Origin: Thiobacillus sp. SCUT-2
GTDB lineage: Bacteria > Pseudomonadota > Gammaproteobacteria > Burkholderiales > Thiobacillaceae
DNA length: 64,000 nt
Reading direction: 5' to 3'
Assembly (NCBI RefSeq): GCF_035621355.1
Contig: NZ_CP141769.1
Span: 558,001-622,000 of the forward strand
Each line of letters starts with the position of its first letter. The stretch's first letter is position 1. This document shows, piece after piece, positions 41,418 to 48,495 of the stretch. The translations under genes and the position numbers were made by a program. The notes under the pieces were generated by a model. That model was given only the letters and a program-made list of their open reading frames with translations, ran no database searches and was not told the DNA's origin.

Positions 41418-44400
41418 TCAGACCAGCGTCTCCAGCGGCCTCGGCTCCCCGATCAGGTACCCCTGCACGCAATCCACGCCCATCTCCGTCAGTTTGGCGA
41501 GCGTCTCCCCGTCCTCGACGAAGCCCGCCACGGTCTTGATGCCGAGGAAGCTGCCGGTCTCGAGGATCGAGCGCACCAGCGCCTCGTCGATCATGCTGGT
41601 GCCGAGTTCGCGCACGAGCGCGCGGTCGATCTTCAGGTAGTCGAGCTTCATGCTCTTCAGGCGCGTGTAGGAGCTGGTGCCGGCGCCGAATTCGTCGAGC
41701 GTGAAACGGCAGCCGTGGCGCTGCAGCTGGCGCATGAAGAGCTGGGTCTGGGCGTGGCCCCCGACGGCGTCGGCCTCGCTGATCTCGAAGATGAGCTTGT
41801 CGCCGGGGAGGTCGCCGCGCGCGAGATCGGCAAGCAGCAGTTTCAGGAACAGCGGATTGGTGACCGACTGGCCGGAGAGGTTGATCGCGAAGCCGCCCAG
41901 CGTGGCGACGCGCTCGGGGTGCGCGCGCATCCAGTGCAGCACGCTTTTCACCACCCAGCGGTCGATCTCGGTGACGCGTTGCAGGCGTTCGGCGACGGCG
42001 ATCAGGTCTCGGGTTGCAATGCTGGCCTCGCCCTGGGTCACGGGATGCAGCAGCACTTCGTGGTAGAGCGCCGTGCGCGCGGCATCGGCTGCGGCGACGA
42101 CGGGCTGGCAGTTCAGGCTGAGCTGGTTGTGCGCGAGGATGTCCGTGAGCCGGTGCGCCCATTCGGCCAGCGCCAGCACGCCGCCGGCATCGGCCTCGCT
42201 GCCGTAGACGACGACCCGCGCGCCGGATTCGCGCGCGCCCGCGCAGGCGGCGTTGGCGTTGTCGTAGTATGCCTCCGGCGTGAGGCAGTCGCGGGTCCAC
42301 ATGAGGCCTGCGGCCGCGTCGACGCGGTAGCGGATGCCGTTGATCTCCTGCGGCTGGCCGGCGATGGCGCGCAGCAGCGCGTCGGCCTGGGCTTCCGCCG
42401 ACGCCTGGCCAGCCGCCTCGATCCAGAATGCGATGCCGGATTCGCCGGCACGGGCGAGCAGGGCGTCGGGCGGCAGCAGCGCGGGCAGGATCTGCGCGTA
42501 CTCGCGCAGGATCGGCGTGCGGATCTCGGCGCCGACGGCTTCGCCGGCGGGCGTCGTGATGTCGAGCTGGACCACGCCGACGGCGTAGCCGCCGTCGGCG
42601 GCCTGGCTCCGCAGCCAGGCGCGGCGGATGGCGCGGAAGAAGCTCTTGCGGTTGGCGAGTCCGGTGGCGGGGTCGTGCGAGGACTGCCAGACCAGGTCGC
42701 GCTGCATCTTCTGGATCATCGCGCTGTAGGAGCGATCCATCAGCGGCAGCTCGAGGTCTTCGGCCCAGTGTGCGTCGCCGCTCTCCAGTGACTGCAGCAG
42801 GTCGGTGCGCTTGAGGTCGAGCTTCTTGATGCCGCGGTAGTTGGCGAACACGTAGACCGGTGGCTGGTCGCCGATCCAGATCAGATTGAGCGGCGTGTCG
42901 AACGATTTGAATTGCAGCCAGTCGCCGACGCGCAGGCGTTCGGCGAGGGTGTCCTGCGTCTCGGTCAACGGTTCGGTGGCGGCATCGGTCAGCCGGGCGG
43001 CGACCGGGGTGCGCGGGTGCTGCGACTTGTCCTCGTCGAACAGCACGCTGGCGAGCTGGTCGACGATGCGGTCCTGCGCGAACTTGTCGGCGCAGACGTG
43101 GGTGAGCGCCTGGTCGATGCGCTGCAGCAGGGTCTGGATTTCGGCGGTGGTCGCGCCGGCGTGCTCGGGGTCGAGCCACACGCAGAGCTGCTCGAGCACG
43201 CGCCAGGCCTCGCGCGCCTCGTCGCTGTCGCTGCCGTGGCGAATTTCGGCCATCAGCAGCACGTTGCGCCAGCCGCCGTTCAACAGCTCGATCACCGCAT
43301 TGGGGATCGGGCGCTCGTCGAGCCGCGCCAGCAGTTCGCGCAGAATGCGCTGCTTGGCGACCTCGGCGCGCTGGCGGCCTTCGCACATCTCCTGCAGGCG
43401 GAAGATGCGCGCGGCGCGCTCGTTGAGCAGCGGCTTGACCACGCGCTCGAGCTGGGTGCGCGCTTCCTCGAACACCCCCGGGTTCCTGTCGGCCTCGGCG
43501 TTGATGCGGTCGGTCCAGCGGTTCATCAGCCGCAGCAGGCGCTGGTCGGCGATCTTGCCGTCGTCGCCCGCCACCATGCTGATGCGGTCGAGCGTGTTCA
43601 AGACCTTGTGCGCAGGGTGGGCGGGCGAGCTGAGGAAGGCCGGGTCGGCCATCGCGAGCTTGATGAGGCTCGCCTCGAGCTGCTGGAAGAACGGCCGCAT
43701 GCCGTCGCTGATCGACTTCTCCGCGTGCATGGTGTCGAACAGTGCACCGAACATGTCGACCGAATGCTGCATTTCCACCGTGACGGCCGGCGGCAGTGCG
43801 CCGGCGGCGGCCAGGCGCTGCAGCACCGGCGAGTGGGCGACGCCGGGCGTGTATCCCCCGTCGGGGCGGATGCCGCCCGGCGCGCCGGCGGGCATGGCGG
43901 CGCCAGGCGTGGCCTCACCGGGTAAGCCGCCCCCCCAGGCGGGCGTGCCGCTGCCGCCGGGCGCGAGGGAACGGCCGCCCTCGCCGGCGGCGACGGAAGC
44001 GGACGCCTGCCCGCTTGCCGGCTGGCCACGGAAGAAATCCATCAGGGAACCGGCGAGCCGGCTCAGGGTGCCCTGCGGGGGGGCGGAGGGAGGCACGGAG
44101 GCGGTCGCTTCCACGGCCGCGGGGTGAACACTGCCGGGGGTGCTGCGCTCGGGCGTCACCACCGGCCGATACTTCGCCGCTTCGGCCTCGGACACCGGCA
44201 GCAGGGCCAGCAATTCGGCATAGAGCGGCGCCAGCTGCTCGGCCAGCACGTCGCGCAGGGTGGCGTAGGCCACCTGCCGCGCCTTCGCCAGCACGGGCAC
44301 GTCCTGCAGCGCGCCACGGTAGGCGTGGCCGATGACGGCGGGGCCGAACGGGTTGTTGCTGTGGTCGCAGGCAAAGCCGAACAGCTGGCCGATGCGCGGC

Positions 44401-45176
44401 TCGATGTCGGCCAGTTGCTCGCGGAAGTGCTCCTCCAGCCTGTTGGCTTCCGACGAGGTGGCGAGCCAGTCCTCGAAGTCGAGCTCGTCCACCAGCGCGA
44501 GATCGCCGGACGTGTCGCGCGTCGCCTGCGTCTGCACCGGCCGTGCCTGCTTCAGCGCATCGAGCACCGCCTGCACGAAACGGGTCTGCACCGCCGGTGC
44601 GTGATGGGCGAACTCATGCACGGCGTTCAGCAGTCCGCTGTGCTCCGCGATGCCGGCAGCATGCAGGGCGGCGGCGTTCAGCCGCTCCGTGAGTTGGCGC
44701 ATCACCTGGTCGTGCACCTGCAGCAGGGATTCGCTGAGCAGGGTCGTGCTGGCCTCGCGCAGGTGCGGGTACGCGGTCGACGCCGGCAGCGCCGCGAGCT
44801 TCTGCCGGTGGCCGGCCATGCGCAGGCGCTGCAGCGCACGGAGTGCCTCGGTCGGCTGCTGGGTGAACGCGACGCCAACCCCGAGCGGGCTCAGTCGCTT
44901 GAGCTGGGCGGGCACCCGGAAGGTCTCGGCGGCGCTGATCGAAACCGGGGTGAAGACGATCTCCACTGCGGCGTTGTCGCGCCTGGCAAGCGCCGTGATC
45001 GCCGCCTCCGGGTTGGTGAACTTGAGGAACAGGCCGCCCAGGCAGAAATCGCGGATCTCGCAGGCGATCTCGGTGTATCCCGGCTGGGTGATGATGGCTG
45101 GCTGCGAGACCTGGAAGCGCCTGTCGCGGCGCAGGTCCGGTCCGGCGTGTTGGGCGTCTGTCGCATTAGCCGTCAT
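41418..45176 (-). CDS. PilZ-DUF1631-degenerate GGDEF-EAL multidomain protein
   Basis: About 1252 residues. In order: a PilZ-like domain (residues about 15-105, RRDRRFQVSQPAII and DFCLGGLFLKF), a long helical DUF1631 region (about 130-780) with a Pro/Gly-rich stretch near 420-470, a GGDEF domain (SHDPATGLANRKSFFRAIRR) whose signature reads AGESG, and an EAL domain. In the EAL part the first Glu (HEVLLHP), INLSG, FEISE and LKID are kept, but the double Asp is DE (LDEFGAG) and the AEGVE motif is AGFVE. It is probably a c-di-GMP sensor and not an enzyme. A GTG at 45182, better spaced from GGGAG, is an alternative start. Confidence 0.85.
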   Translation of the reverse strand: MTANATDAQHAGPDLRRDRRFQVSQPAIITQPGYTEIACEIRDFCLGGLFLKFTNPEAAITALARRDNAAVEIVFTPVSISAAETFRVPAQLKRLSPLGVGVAFTQQPTEALRALQRLRMAGHRQKLAALPASTAYPHLREASTTLLSESLLQVHDQVMRQLTERLNAAALHAAGIAEHSGLLNAVHEFAHHAPAVQTRFVQAVLDALKQARPVQTQATRDTSGDLALVDELDFEDWLATSSEANRLEEHFREQLADIEPRIGQLFGFACDHSNNPFGPAVIGHAYRGALQDVPVLAKARQVAYATLRDVLAEQLAPLYAELLALLPVSEAEAAKYRPVVTPERSTPGSVHPAAVEATASVPPSAPPQGTLSRLAGSLMDFFRGQPASGQASASVAAGEGGRSLAPGGSGTPAWGGGLPGEATPGAAMPAGAPGGIRPDGGYTPGVAHSPVLQRLAAAGALPPAVTVEMQHSVDMFGALFDTMHAEKSISDGMRPFFQQLEASLIKLAMADPAFLSSPAHPAHKVLNTLDRISMVAGDDGKIADQRLLRLMNRWTDRINAEADRNPGVFEEARTQLERVVKPLLNERAARIFRLQEMCEGRQRAEVAKQRILRELLARLDERPIPNAVIELLNGGWRNVLLMAEIRHGSDSDEAREAWRVLEQLCVWLDPEHAGATTAEIQTLLQRIDQALTHVCADKFAQDRIVDQLASVLFDEDKSQHPRTPVAARLTDAATEPLTETQDTLAERLRVGDWLQFKSFDTPLNLIWIGDQPPVYVFANYRGIKKLDLKRTDLLQSLESGDAHWAEDLELPLMDRSYSAMIQKMQRDLVWQSSHDPATGLANRKSFFRAIRRAWLRSQAADGGYAVGVVQLDITTPAGEAVGAEIRTPILREYAQILPALLPPDALLARAGESGIAFWIEAAGQASAEAQADALLRAIAGQPQEINGIRYRVDAAAGLMWTRDCLTPEAYYDNANAACAGARESGARVVVYGSEADAGGVLALAEWAHRLTDILAHNQLSLNCQPVVAAADAARTALYHEVLLHPVTQGEASIATRDLIAVAERLQRVTEIDRWVVKSVLHWMRAHPERVATLGGFAINLSGQSVTNPLFLKLLLADLARGDLPGDKLIFEISEADAVGGHAQTQLFMRQLQRHGCRFTLDEFGAGTSSYTRLKSMKLDYLKIDRALVRELGTSMIDEALVRSILETGSFLGIKTVAGFVEDGETLAKLTEMGVDCVQGYLIGEPRPLETLV

Positions 45177-45229
45177 TTCCACACTTGAGCTCCCTGGTTG
45201 TTCTGGTCTGGCCGATCCCCGCCGTGCGC

Positions 45230-45259
45230 TTGGCGGGGCCTGCCCGAATTTGGTAGACT
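45230..45259 (+). promoter_or_regulatory. Candidate promoter of the aroG leader
   Basis: TTGGCG (45230-45235), 18-bp spacer, TAGACT (45254-45259). Modest match to sigma-70 boxes. It would place the transcription start at about the first base of the leader-peptide ATG. Confidence 0.45.
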
Positions 45260-45266
45260 GCCATGC

Positions 45267-45335
45267 ATGATTCGTGCCGCAAAGTTCTTTTTTAGCCGCT
45301 TTTATCCCACGCCGCAGGCGGTCGGGAGGCGCTGA
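45267..45335 (+). CDS. Phe/Tyr-rich leader peptide of aroG (22 aa)
   Basis: Short frame ATG to TGA whose peptide contains FFFSRFY: four Phe and one Tyr within seven residues, and a stop codon 25 bp before a strong terminator. This is the pattern of attenuation leader peptides such as PheL, and the gene that follows makes DAHP, the first intermediate of Phe, Tyr and Trp. No clear Shine-Dalgarno sequence. Too short to be scored by length; called because of residue content and position. Confidence 0.75.
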   Translation: MIRAAKFFFSRFYPTPQAVGRR

Positions 45336-45374
45336 GACGAACAGCATGCCCTTCACGAAACCGCCAGCATGCTG
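45328..45374 (+). promoter_or_regulatory. Alternative RNA pairings of the aroG attenuator
   Basis: GCTG (45331-45334) can pair with CAGC (45342-45345) as a protector hairpin. CAGCATGC (45342-45349) can pair with GCATGCTG (45367-45374), which would open the terminator. These are the 1:2 and 2:3 pairings expected of a translational attenuator. Confidence 0.6.
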
Positions 45375-45385
45375 GCGGTTTTTTT
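45361..45385 (+). terminator. Attenuator terminator upstream of aroG
   Basis: Perfect palindrome CCGCCAGCATGCTGGCGG (45361-45378) directly followed by seven T residues. It lies between the leader peptide and aroG, 47 bp before the aroG start, with no other gene upstream on this strand that would need terminating there. Confidence 0.9.
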
Positions 45386-45432
45386 CGTTATGAGCCGCCG
45401 CTGGAGTCCAACGCAAACAACCGGAGTCTGAG

Positions 45433-46509
45433 ATGACCGCCACCCGAACCGACGACACCCGCATCGAGCAGAGCGGCGAACTGCTTGCCCCCATGCAGAT
45501 CATGCGCGAACTGCGCGCCAGCGAGGCGGTGCACGCGCACGTGGCGCAGGCGCGCAGCGCCATCCACGATGTCCTGCGCGGTGCCGACGACCGCATGTTC
45601 ATCGTCGTCGGGCCGTGCTCGATCCACGACCCGGCGGCCGCGCTCGACTATGCGCGCCGGCTGAAGCCGCTGGCCGACGAGCTGGCACGCGATCTCATCG
45701 TCGTGATGCGCGTGTACTTCGAGAAGCCGCGCACGACGGTGGGCTGGAAGGGCCTGATCAACGACCCGCACCTCGACGAGAGCTTCGACATCAACGAGGG
45801 CCTGCGGCTCGCGCGTAAATTATTGTTGGAGACCAACGAGATCGGCCTGCCGTGCGCGACCGAGTTCCTCGACCTGATCTCGCCGCAGTACATCGCCGAC
45901 CTGGTGAGCTGGGGCGCGATCGGCGCACGCACGACGGAATCGCAGTCGCATCGCCAGCTGGCCTCCGGCCTGTCGTGCCCGGTGGGGTTCAAGAACGGCA
46001 CCGACGGCAGCCTGAGGATCGCGGTCGACGCGATCAAGGCCGCGGCCGCGCGCCACCACTTCATCTCGATCACCAAGTCGGGCCACGTCGGCGTGTTCAG
46101 CACCTCGGGCAACGAGGACACCCACGTCATCCTGCGCGGCGGCAAGGCGCCCAACTACGATGCCGCGAGCGTGAATCTCGCGTGCGGCGAGCTGGCCGCG
46201 GCGGGCTTGCGCCAGCAGCTGATGATCGACTTCTCGCACGCGAACTCGAGCAAGCAGTACCAGCGCCAGCTCGACGTCGGCGCTGACGTCGCCGCGCAGG
46301 TGGCGGGCGGCGACACCCGCATCATCGGCGCCATGATCGAAAGTCACATCAACCCGGGGCGCCAGGATATGGTGGCCGGGCAGCCGCTGGAATATGCCAA
46401 GTCGATCACCGACGCCTGCATCGGCTGGGACGACACCGTGCCGCTCCTCAGGCTGCTGGCCGACGCGGTGAAAAAACGCCGCCTTACCGCGCCGGCGGAT
46501 GAGGAATAA
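45433..46509 (+). CDS. aroG: 3-deoxy-7-phosphoheptulonate (DAHP) synthase, class I
   Basis: Condenses phosphoenolpyruvate with erythrose-4-phosphate, the first committed step of the shikimate pathway. 358 aa, matching AroF/AroG/AroH enzymes. Key blocks: IVVGPCSIHDP, MRVYFEKPRTTVGWKGLINDP, ARTTESQSHRQLASGLSCPVGFKNGT, and HANSSKQYQRQ with the metal-binding region near IIGAMIESHI. Which amino acid inhibits the enzyme cannot be read with certainty, so the AroG name is for the family. The preceding leader peptide and terminator suggest control by Phe/Tyr tRNA charging. The 4.5S RNA gene follows. Confidence 0.95.
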   Translation: MTATRTDDTRIEQSGELLAPMQIMRELRASEAVHAHVAQARSAIHDVLRGADDRMFIVVGPCSIHDPAAALDYARRLKPLADELARDLIVVMRVYFEKPRTTVGWKGLINDPHLDESFDINEGLRLARKLLLETNEIGLPCATEFLDLISPQYIADLVSWGAIGARTTESQSHRQLASGLSCPVGFKNGTDGSLRIAVDAIKAAAARHHFISITKSGHVGVFSTSGNEDTHVILRGGKAPNYDAASVNLACGELAAAGLRQQLMIDFSHANSSKQYQRQLDVGADVAAQVAGGDTRIIGAMIESHINPGRQDMVAGQPLEYAKSITDACIGWDDTVPLLRLLADAVKKRRLTAPADEE

Positions 46510-46523
46510 GCGCGCTTCCGGAG

Positions 46524-46529
46524 TAAAAT
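46524..46529 (+). promoter_or_regulatory. -10 box of the 4.5S RNA gene
   Basis: TAAAAT located 6 bp before the expected RNA 5' end. I see no good -35 box at the right distance. Confidence 0.5.
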
Positions 46530-46535
46530 GCTCGC

Positions 46536-46630
46536 GGCGGGCCTCCCCGCATGGCTAAGTCGTGAATCGGGTCAGGTCCGGAAGGAAGCAGCCCCAGCGA
46601 CCGACGCCAGTGCCGGGGTTCTGGCTCGCC
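46536..46630 (+). ncRNA. ffs: 4.5S signal recognition particle RNA
   Basis: RNA partner of Ffh in co-translational membrane targeting. The conserved domain IV core is GGTCAGGTCCGGAAGGAAGC (46570-46589), followed by AGCCCCAGCGACC and the matching strand GCCAGTGCCGGGG. The ends pair over 8 bp, GGCGGGCC (46536-46543) with GGCTCGCC (46623-46630), defining a 95-nt molecule. The usual place just upstream of dnaX supports the call. Confidence 0.95.
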
Positions 46631-46753
46631 ATTCCTGGCTGCATTCGGACGGGCTGTGTTGGATCAGATCGGGCGTTGTCGCGCCTTGCCGTACTGATCT
46701 GTACTGTCTGCGGCGCTCCGCCTTGCCTCCGTCCGAATGCAGCCAGGAATGGC
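46628..46753. repeat. 126-bp element with perfect 25-bp terminal inverted repeats next to ffs
   Basis: Left arm 46628-46652 and right arm 46729-46753 are exact reverse complements (each holds CATTCCTGGCTGCATTCGGA). The 76-bp centre contains a further small inverted pair (CAGATC and GATCTG). The left arm starts in the last 3 nt of ffs. I see no transposase gene and no convincing target duplication. It could be a non-autonomous mobile element or a structured terminator. Confidence 0.8.
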
Positions 46754-46773
46754 CATAGCCAACGACATCACCC

Positions 46774-48495
46774 ATGACTGACCTCTTCGGCGATTCCGCT
46801 ACCCCCACCGTTGCGCTGGCGCGCAAGTGGCGGCCGCGCGCGTTCGCCGACCTCAAGGGGCAGGAGCATGTGGTGCAGGCGCTCTCCAACGCACTCACCC
46901 AGGGCCGGCTCCACCACGCCTATCTGCTCACCGGCACGCGCGGCGTCGGCAAGACCACGCTGGCGCGCATCCTGGCCAAGTGCCTCAACTGCGAGACCGG
47001 CGTCACCGCGACGCCGTGCGGCACCTGCTCGGCCTGCACCCAGATCGACGCCGGCCGTTTCGTCGACCTGCTCGAGCTCGACGCGGCGTCGAACACCGGC
47101 GTCGACAACATGCGCGAGGTGCTCGACAACGCGCAGTACGCGCCGACCGTGGGCCGCTACAAGGTCTACATCATCGACGAAGTGCACATGCTGTCGAAGC
47201 CGGCGTTCAATTCCATGCTGAAGACGCTGGAAGAGCCGCCCGCGCACGTCAAGTTCATCCTTGCCACCACCGATCCGCAGAAGATTCCGGTGACGGTGCT
47301 CTCGCGCTGCCTGCAGTTCAACCTCAAGCCGATGCCCCCCGCGCTGGTGGCGCAGCATCTGGGCGAGGTGCTCGCGCAGGAGCATGTCGACGCCGAGCCG
47401 GCGGCGCTGAACCTGCTGGCGCGCGCCGCCGCCGGCAGCATGCGCGACGCGCTGTCGCTCACCGACCAGGCGATCGCCTACGGCGGCGGGCGCGTCGAGG
47501 CCGCCGGCGTCGAGGCCATGCTCGGCGCGGTGCGGCGTGACTACCTGTTCGACCTGCTCGACGCGCTGGCGGCGCGCGACGGCGACGCGCTGCTCGCGCA
47601 GGCGCGCGCGCTCGCGGAACGCGGCATCGCATTCGACGCGGCGCTGCAGGATCTCGGCAACCTGCTCACCCAGCTTGCGCTGTTGCTGCATGCGCCGGGC
47701 GCACAGGAAGCGGGACTCGATGCCGAGCGCATGCACGCCGCCGCCGCGCGGCTCGACCCCGAGACGGTTCAGCTCTTCTACCAGATCGCGCTGAACGGCC
47801 GCCGCGATCTGCCCTATGCGCCGGACGAGTTCTCCGGCTTCGCGATGACGCTGCTGCGCATGCTGGCGTTCGCGCCGGATGGCGCGGAAGCGGTGCGGCC
47901 GACGCCGGCCCGCGCCACGCCGGCCGCGCCAGGCGTGCCGCCGCCCACGGTCGCGAGCCCGGCCGCCGCCGCGACTGTGGCGCCGTCGACCGTCGACCCC
48001 GGCACGGCGCCGCCGGCGGCAGTCGCGACGCCCGCGGCACCGGCCGAGGCCCGCTACGATGCGCCGCAGGTGCCTGCCCGACTCGCGAGCGAGCCGGCGC
48101 CGGATGGCGACTGGGACTGGCTGGCCGTGGTGTCAGGGCTGCGCCTCGGCGGCATGGCGAAGATGCTCGCCGACCATTGCGAACTCGTGTCGCAGGCGGG
48201 GGGCACGGTGACGCTGCGCGTCGGCGAGGCACACCGGCACTTGCTCGATCGCGCCTACCAGGACCGGCTCGTCGGGGCCCTGCGCGACAGGTATGGCGCG
48301 GCGCTTCAGGTTACGTTCGAGGTGGGGCAGGCGGCGGAGCAGACGCCCCAGCAGGTGCGCACGCGCGTCAAGGCGGCGCGTCAGGCCGAGGCCGTGGCGG
48401 CGATCGAGGCGGATCCTTTCGTGCGTGAGCTGGTCGACCAGTTTGGCGGCCAGATCGACGCGACGTCCATACAGCCATTAGGAGAATCGACATGA
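46774..48495 (+). CDS. dnaX: DNA polymerase III subunit tau (gamma/tau)
   Basis: Clamp-loader ATPase that also links polymerase cores. 573 aa. AAA+ motifs: Walker [10 protein letters not shown], zinc cluster C-x8-C-x2-C-x2-C in [16 protein letters not shown], Walker B IIDEVHML and sensor [17 protein letters not shown] Pro/Ala-rich linker (about residues 370-430) leads to the C-terminal tau domains. I find no A-rich slippery heptamer in the linker, so a short gamma form by E. coli-type frameshifting is unlikely. The ybaB ATG overlaps the stop by 4 bp. Confidence 0.97.

Follow-up and report, generated by a model that had tools for sequence, protein, structure and literature searches.

The E. 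coli pheA-type leader consists of a Phe-rich leader peptide, a clamp, an antiterminator and a terminator. This general plan is also predicted for the leader described here, which precedes another gene and scores 15 bits against the Rfam family RF01859 (Phe_leader; gathering score 55, E 6.8), so that it does not qualify as a member of that family. For DAHP synthase genes, the aroR-aroF attenuator of C. glutamicum was reportedly described by Neshat in 2014, and the E. coli aroF-tyrA paper behind a listing for Shewanella is said to be that of Camakaris (1980).

According to the available parts of two sources, the C. glutamicum aroF attenuator has a Phe-Tyr-Phe leader, is induced under Phe limitation and is not Tyr-responsive (PMC11802643, PMC4046766); this DAHP-synthase attenuator had been overlooked in an earlier, sequence-only reading of the DNA analysed here. 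Our locus is similar in having an F/Y leader peptide before a DAHP synthase, a likeness of description, whereas C. glutamicum is an actinobacterium and its aroR-aroF is given in those parts as lacking a Tyr response. In Acholeplasma, the uORFC-13-1 motif before aroF, known from 24 unique sequences, is a predicted uORF with Phe codons followed by a terminator (PMC8632094, in part); it shares the Phe-codon frame and the terminator before a DAHP synthase with our locus, and differs in its host and in the RBS described for it. In a table of Shewanella predictions (PMC2659441), aroF is listed as 'Attenuator sensing tyr-tRNA' on the basis of the E. coli aroF-tyrA paper; here too an attenuator is proposed for a DAHP synthase, a resemblance in what the table describes. 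S. meliloti trpL is a leaderless attenuator on record with a reported role in trans (PMC7298713, sections available); it is similar in the leaderless form, which is predicted for our locus, but it senses Trp, precedes trpE(G) and comes from an alphaproteobacterium. No mention of a betaproteobacterial aroG leader was found in the passages seen, and phrases such as 'aroG leader' and 'aroG attenuator' occur in none of the papers of the library searched, from which most subscription papers are absent.

The window, by which we mean the whole 64-kb stretch of DNA analysed, very probably contains a ribosome-mediated Phe/Tyr transcription attenuator of aroG, as judged from sequence comparison and folding models. 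The sequence-only reading had also proposed a Phe/Tyr attenuator before aroG; sequence, conservation and folding agree with it on the kind of element, but not on the wiring. The gene itself (45433-46509, + strand) encodes a type I DAHP synthase (TIGR00034, 533 bits against a cut-off of 173), and the best named relative of its product is AroG of Thiobacillus sp. 65-29 (92% identical). The host genome has 3.0 Mb in a single contig. A search of it gave one AroG-type match and no type II DAHP synthase, and the second type I family match is KDO-8-phosphate synthase, which leaves aroG as the one DAHP synthase identified there. Within the genus, a second aroG-like gene, about 63–64% identical to the query, was seen in three genomes (G013, G046 and G047), and one genome (G037) has two aroG copies, both at 92%.

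The leader peptide frame claimed earlier is indeed in the letters. It runs over 22 codons on the + strand, from the ATG at 45267 to the TGA at 45333-45335, reads MIRAAKFFFSRFYPTPQAVGRR*, and contains codons for end products of the pathway, namely the sensor codons Phe at 45285-45293 and Phe-Tyr at 45300-45305. The same-genus set comprises 56 genomes including the window, 51 of them with an aroG match; 50 loci were read upstream of aroG (48 distinct, window included), and codons were counted in 47, with L124 left out, a leader in which three bases are missing. The earlier claim had been made to depend on conservation of the frame and its Phe codons, and this is borne out: the leader motif is upstream of aroG in all 50 loci, the window included, and the F/Y residues are kept. 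In the 47 loci, Phe occupies the three positions at 45285-45293 in 35, 41 and 46 cases, respectively, while Phe at 45300 and Tyr at 45303 are each kept in 46. The second and third Phe codons switch between TTT and TTC with the residue preserved, and TTT at 45300 and TAT at 45303 show scarcely any variation. On the 3' side of the sensor, the codons CCC, GCG, GTC, GGG, AGG and TGA are invariant in 47 of 47 loci, which is what an RNA-level constraint on this stretch would predict. One same-genus locus (L096) has an extra T in the leader T run, which shifts the frame and truncates the leader.

The sequence-only reading had missed a further property of the leader, its predicted leaderless start, which is added by the present analysis. 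A predicted -35 element, TTGGCG (45230-45235, + strand; exact in 32 of 48 loci), is followed after an 18-nt spacer (the same in 47 of 48 genus loci) by a predicted extended -10 element, TGG then TAGACT (45251-45259, hexamer at 45254-45259), and the pattern TGnTARACT is found in all 48. The -10 element ends 7 nt before the leader ATG in 42 and 6 nt before it in 6 of the 48 distinct loci, no SD-like 4-mer precedes the ATG in any of them, and conservation drops off farther upstream of the promoter. Together, the spacing, the missing SD-like 4-mer and the conservation pattern indicate that the transcript probably has its 5' end at about 45266-45267, on the leader AUG or one nucleotide upstream. 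In a wider comparison, TANNNT stands 6–9 nt before the ATG in 46 of 46 genus leaders, 19 of 22 from the rest of the family, 14 of 43 from other families of the order and 3 of the 27 from named loci, and the leaderless form is predicted to be a trait of Thiobacillus's family and of part of the order. Such a series would offer a natural test of the coupling between RNA polymerase and a ribosome that loads at the extreme 5' end.

Between the leader frame and aroG there is an intrinsic terminator (45359-45385, + strand), a perfect 9-bp stem of AACCGCCAG (45359-45367) and CUGGCGGUU (45372-45380) with a CAUG loop and a T7 tract at 45379-45385. Its fold has a z-score of -4.45, and none of 200 shuffles was equally good. 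The stem length and T tract had been recognized before, with the start placed at 45361, 2 nt off. The upstream neighbour, a DUF1631-GGDEF-EAL protein gene (41418-45176; PilZ, DUF1631, GGDEF and EAL matches), lies on the strand opposite to aroG, so the terminator is not needed by any upstream gene. It might be merely a constitutive terminator, or the end of a small-RNA gene, with aroG transcribed from its own promoter downstream. Either way, the terminated transcript should measure about 119 nt, and the 47 nt between the T tract and aroG count in favour of this explanation. However, a simple promoter scan of 44800-46800 was empty, a scan that also missed the proposed leader promoter, and conservation amounts to 0.48 bits per column in the 30 nt 3' of the terminator versus 2.00 in its 5' arm (48 loci), while the leader promoter is conserved. 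Moreover, such an explanation would not lead one to expect a Phe/Tyr frame that keeps a nearly constant distance from a conserved GGCGG core, and we regard a constitutive terminator or small-RNA gene as quite improbable.

This core, GGCGG(T), forms segment 2 (45317-45322, + strand); its codons GCG GTC are identical in 47 of 47 genus loci, and GGCGG or GGTGG is present in 140 of the 145 leaders compared. In the folding calculations, the antiterminator (+ strand) has an outer helix that pairs GGCGG with CCGCC (45317-45321 : 45361-45365) and inner helices up to 45334 : 45342, and the segment 45315-45371 reaches -22.6 kcal/mol (z -2.87; equalled by 3 of 200 shuffles). The proposed protecting hairpin, or clamp, which would sequester segment 2, spans 45284-45342 on the same strand and is lost in the calculation when a ribosome sits on the F/Y codons; the stretch 45283-45342 gives -22.3 kcal/mol (z -2.13; equalled by 7 of 200 shuffles). 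Two longer stretches, 45267-45345 and 45267-45371, have no folding advantage over shuffled sequence (z -0.25 and -0.63). Two pairings suggested earlier have other fates. The complementarity of CAGCATGC and GCATGCTG, put forward as the antiterminator, is present in the letters but occurs in the window alone among the 48 distinct same-genus loci, and was rejected. The GCTG/CAGC pair is kept (CTGA...CAG tip in 45 of 48), but the folds place it at the antiterminator's tip and not in the protecting hairpin, for which the longer clamp is proposed.

The dependence of these folds on ribosome position was calculated by folding the transcript just before segment 4 emerges, with the ribosome footprint held single-stranded. 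The mean probability of the GGCGGT:ACCGCC pairing over 48 loci is 0.88 with the ribosome on either the third or the fourth Phe, 0.87 on Tyr and 0.00 on the stop codon. Without a ribosome it is 0.39, and the clamp would then hold segment 2 only in part. The antiterminator exceeds a probability of 0.5 in 48 of 48 loci at each of the three sensor positions, in none at the stop codon and in 18 without a ribosome. For the full-length RNA at equilibrium, the terminator is favoured in every state (mean probability at least 0.94), so the switch must be kinetic. In a looser codon-by-codon scan of 46 genus leaders, in which segment 3 paired with anything upstream was counted, the means are 0.61–0.67 at the F/Y codons, fall to 0.49 at the Pro that follows and to 0.19 at Thr, and stand at 0.37 for the stop codon. 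The four codons before the Phe run give 0.62–0.65, nearly equal to the F/Y values; a stall before the run is thus about the same as a stall on it, and the calculation limits the sensor on its downstream side only. In 27 leaders taken from other lineages, the drop past the last F/Y codon was judged by eye: 16 show it clearly, 4 are mixed, and in 7 it comes late or is missing. The value at the stop codon is at least 0.5 in 12 of the 27. By calculation, then, an antiterminator would exclude the terminator depending on ribosome position, clearly in the genus (48 of 48) and less clearly in other lineages.

Covariation was examined in the 140 leaders with the core, whose rows are related to each other and include a few duplicates. 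The terminator pair adjoining the core is A-T in 122, G-C in 12, T-A in 2, G-T in 1 and unpaired in 3, and these compensatory changes across lineages give the terminator good support. At the same place beside the core, the antiterminator pair is T-A in 55, T-G in 6, C-G in 5, A-T in 2 and unpaired in 72, and on the other side of the core T-A in 80 and unpaired in 60. The core itself was the anchor; outside it, the support that covariation lends to the antiterminator is weak. The covariation of stems that the sequence-only reading had called for is therefore seen in the terminator, whereas segment 2:3 shows little compensatory change, a likely reason being that segment 3 has to be complementary to both segment 2 and segment 4.

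On these grounds the switch would work as follows. RNA polymerase would begin on the leader AUG or one nucleotide upstream, and a ribosome would load on the 5'-terminal AUG and then trail the polymerase. When charged tRNA-Phe or tRNA-Tyr is scarce, the ribosome is expected to stall in vivo at F-F-F..F-Y (45285-45305) and to open the clamp, GGCGG (45317) could pair with CCGCC (45361) as antiterminator, the terminator would presumably come too late in this kinetic order, and aroG would be transcribed. When both charged tRNAs are ample, the ribosome would reach the UGA at 45333 and cover segment 2, so that the terminator forms and transcription ends before aroG. Otherwise, without a stall, the clamp hairpin 45284-45342 would hold GGCGG. 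The size of the response to Phe and Tyr is something we infer.

TnaC, a nascent-peptide arrest switch, provides the model for another explanation, in which the conserved C-terminus PTPxAVGRR would stall the ribosome on free Phe or Tyr. This C-terminus is almost invariant within the genus, but so are the synonymous sites in AVGR, so the constraint points to the RNA. In other lineages the C-terminus differs (PLADREG, SNSNPKAVE), and in 11 of the 140 leaders (L217 and L233 among them being one place) the core begins at a different codon position, so it is not the end of the peptide that is conserved. In all 140 leaders having the GGCGG core, 11–24 nt separate the core from the last F/Y codon preceding it, counted from the first base of that codon. 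Peptide arrest is very unlikely on this evidence.

Library searches gave no name to the leader. No Rfam family reaches its gathering score there, and the best rows (E up to 10) are all below it, for example Hrs13 with 16.9 bits against a gathering score of 52 (E 0.094), so none was accepted. Rfam scans of 11 and of 8 other loci also left the leader unmatched. Three leader peptides gave no row in Pfam, and the three queried in NCBIfam gave IlvX at E 0.21, under its cut-off. The leader family is thus named in none of Rfam, Pfam and NCBIfam as searched. T-boxes precede DAHP-synthase genes in Firmicutes, and a tRNA-binding T-box, or a riboswitch that works without translation, might be considered here for that reason. 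But the Rfam result over the leader contains no such family at gathering score, and the leader frame with its conserved sense codons would be left without explanation, which makes this the case of an almost negligible probability.

The ribosome-mediated attenuator also stands out from chance. A mechanical rule (ATG frame of 12–32 codons, at least 5 F/Y in 7, then a perfect terminator stem) matches a single place on both strands of the window, the aroG leader, and nothing in 20 Markov copies. In 80 named loci (545 kb), chosen by AroG similarity, 24 have matches, all of which fall within 450 nt before aroG, though the rule is strict and misses further leaders visible by eye. In many of these 80 loci, listed by eye, no such leader was seen, as in Enterobacterales, Vibrionaceae, Methylotenera and several Rhodocyclaceae. 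In L040 (Candidatus Burkholderia humilis, a leaf-nodule symbiont), the leader frame is shifted and overruns the terminator, possibly a decaying attenuator.

A covariance model built from 43 leaders matches 110 of 117 family genomes, full length in at least 52 of 56 same-genus and at least 52 of 61 other family genomes. Among the matches listed, four same-genus genomes (G032, G036, G049 and G051) have none, and the aroG match is absent there too. With stricter filters, which lose weak matches, 150 of 399 genomes in an even sample of the order match, part of them at the terminator only, and 9 of 369 in a class sample at E 1e-5, among them the genome of the window itself and two others from its order. 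Of the eight other class matches, six precede aroG; the remaining two, L235 and L236, are weak, do not precede it and look like chance. All 66 stronger matches examined (23 from the family, 43 from other families of the order) are upstream of aroG. The maximum number of F/Y in 8 codons at these 66 loci is at least 4 in 60, 3 in L189, L197, L198, L201 and L202, and 1 in L199. Three of them (L198, L199 and L201), from one genus of the family, have few F/Y codons and yet the GGCGG core and a terminator, for which decay or a change of sensor is possible.

Some leaders also have Trp codons in the sensor block: 5 of the 46 from the genus, none of the 23 from the rest of the family, 13 of the 27 from named loci, 19 of the 44 from the order and 3 of the 4 from the class. 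All of these leaders were selected by F/Y content and not by Trp. This suggests that many leaders outside the family may read all three aromatic amino acids. A broader proposal, to which we give slightly less than even credence, is that across much of the betaproteobacterial order one attenuator family, partly leaderless, gates DAHP synthase and integrates the charging of aromatic tRNAs, which in Thiobacillus would be those for Phe and Tyr and in many other lineages those for Trp as well. If so, the supply of all three end products would set the entry into the shikimate pathway, and the control of the first enzyme of the aromatic pathway would be explained in a large bacterial group. The differing sets of Phe, Tyr and Trp codons would form a natural series for asking how one attenuator weighs several tRNAs. 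There is also a slim chance, by analogy with what the available part of the S. meliloti trpL report describes, that the terminated leader RNA or its peptide acts in trans.

Downstream of aroG, a small bacterial SRP RNA gene (46536-46633, + strand; Rfam RF00169, 76.6 bits) lies between aroG and dnaX, and an SRP RNA gene is likewise found 3' of aroG in L005. Between this gene and dnaX there is a perfect 25-bp inverted repeat (46628-46652 / 46729-46753) with arms 76 nt apart. The own genome contains no second copy of it, and some relatives show arms of a similar kind close to aroG.
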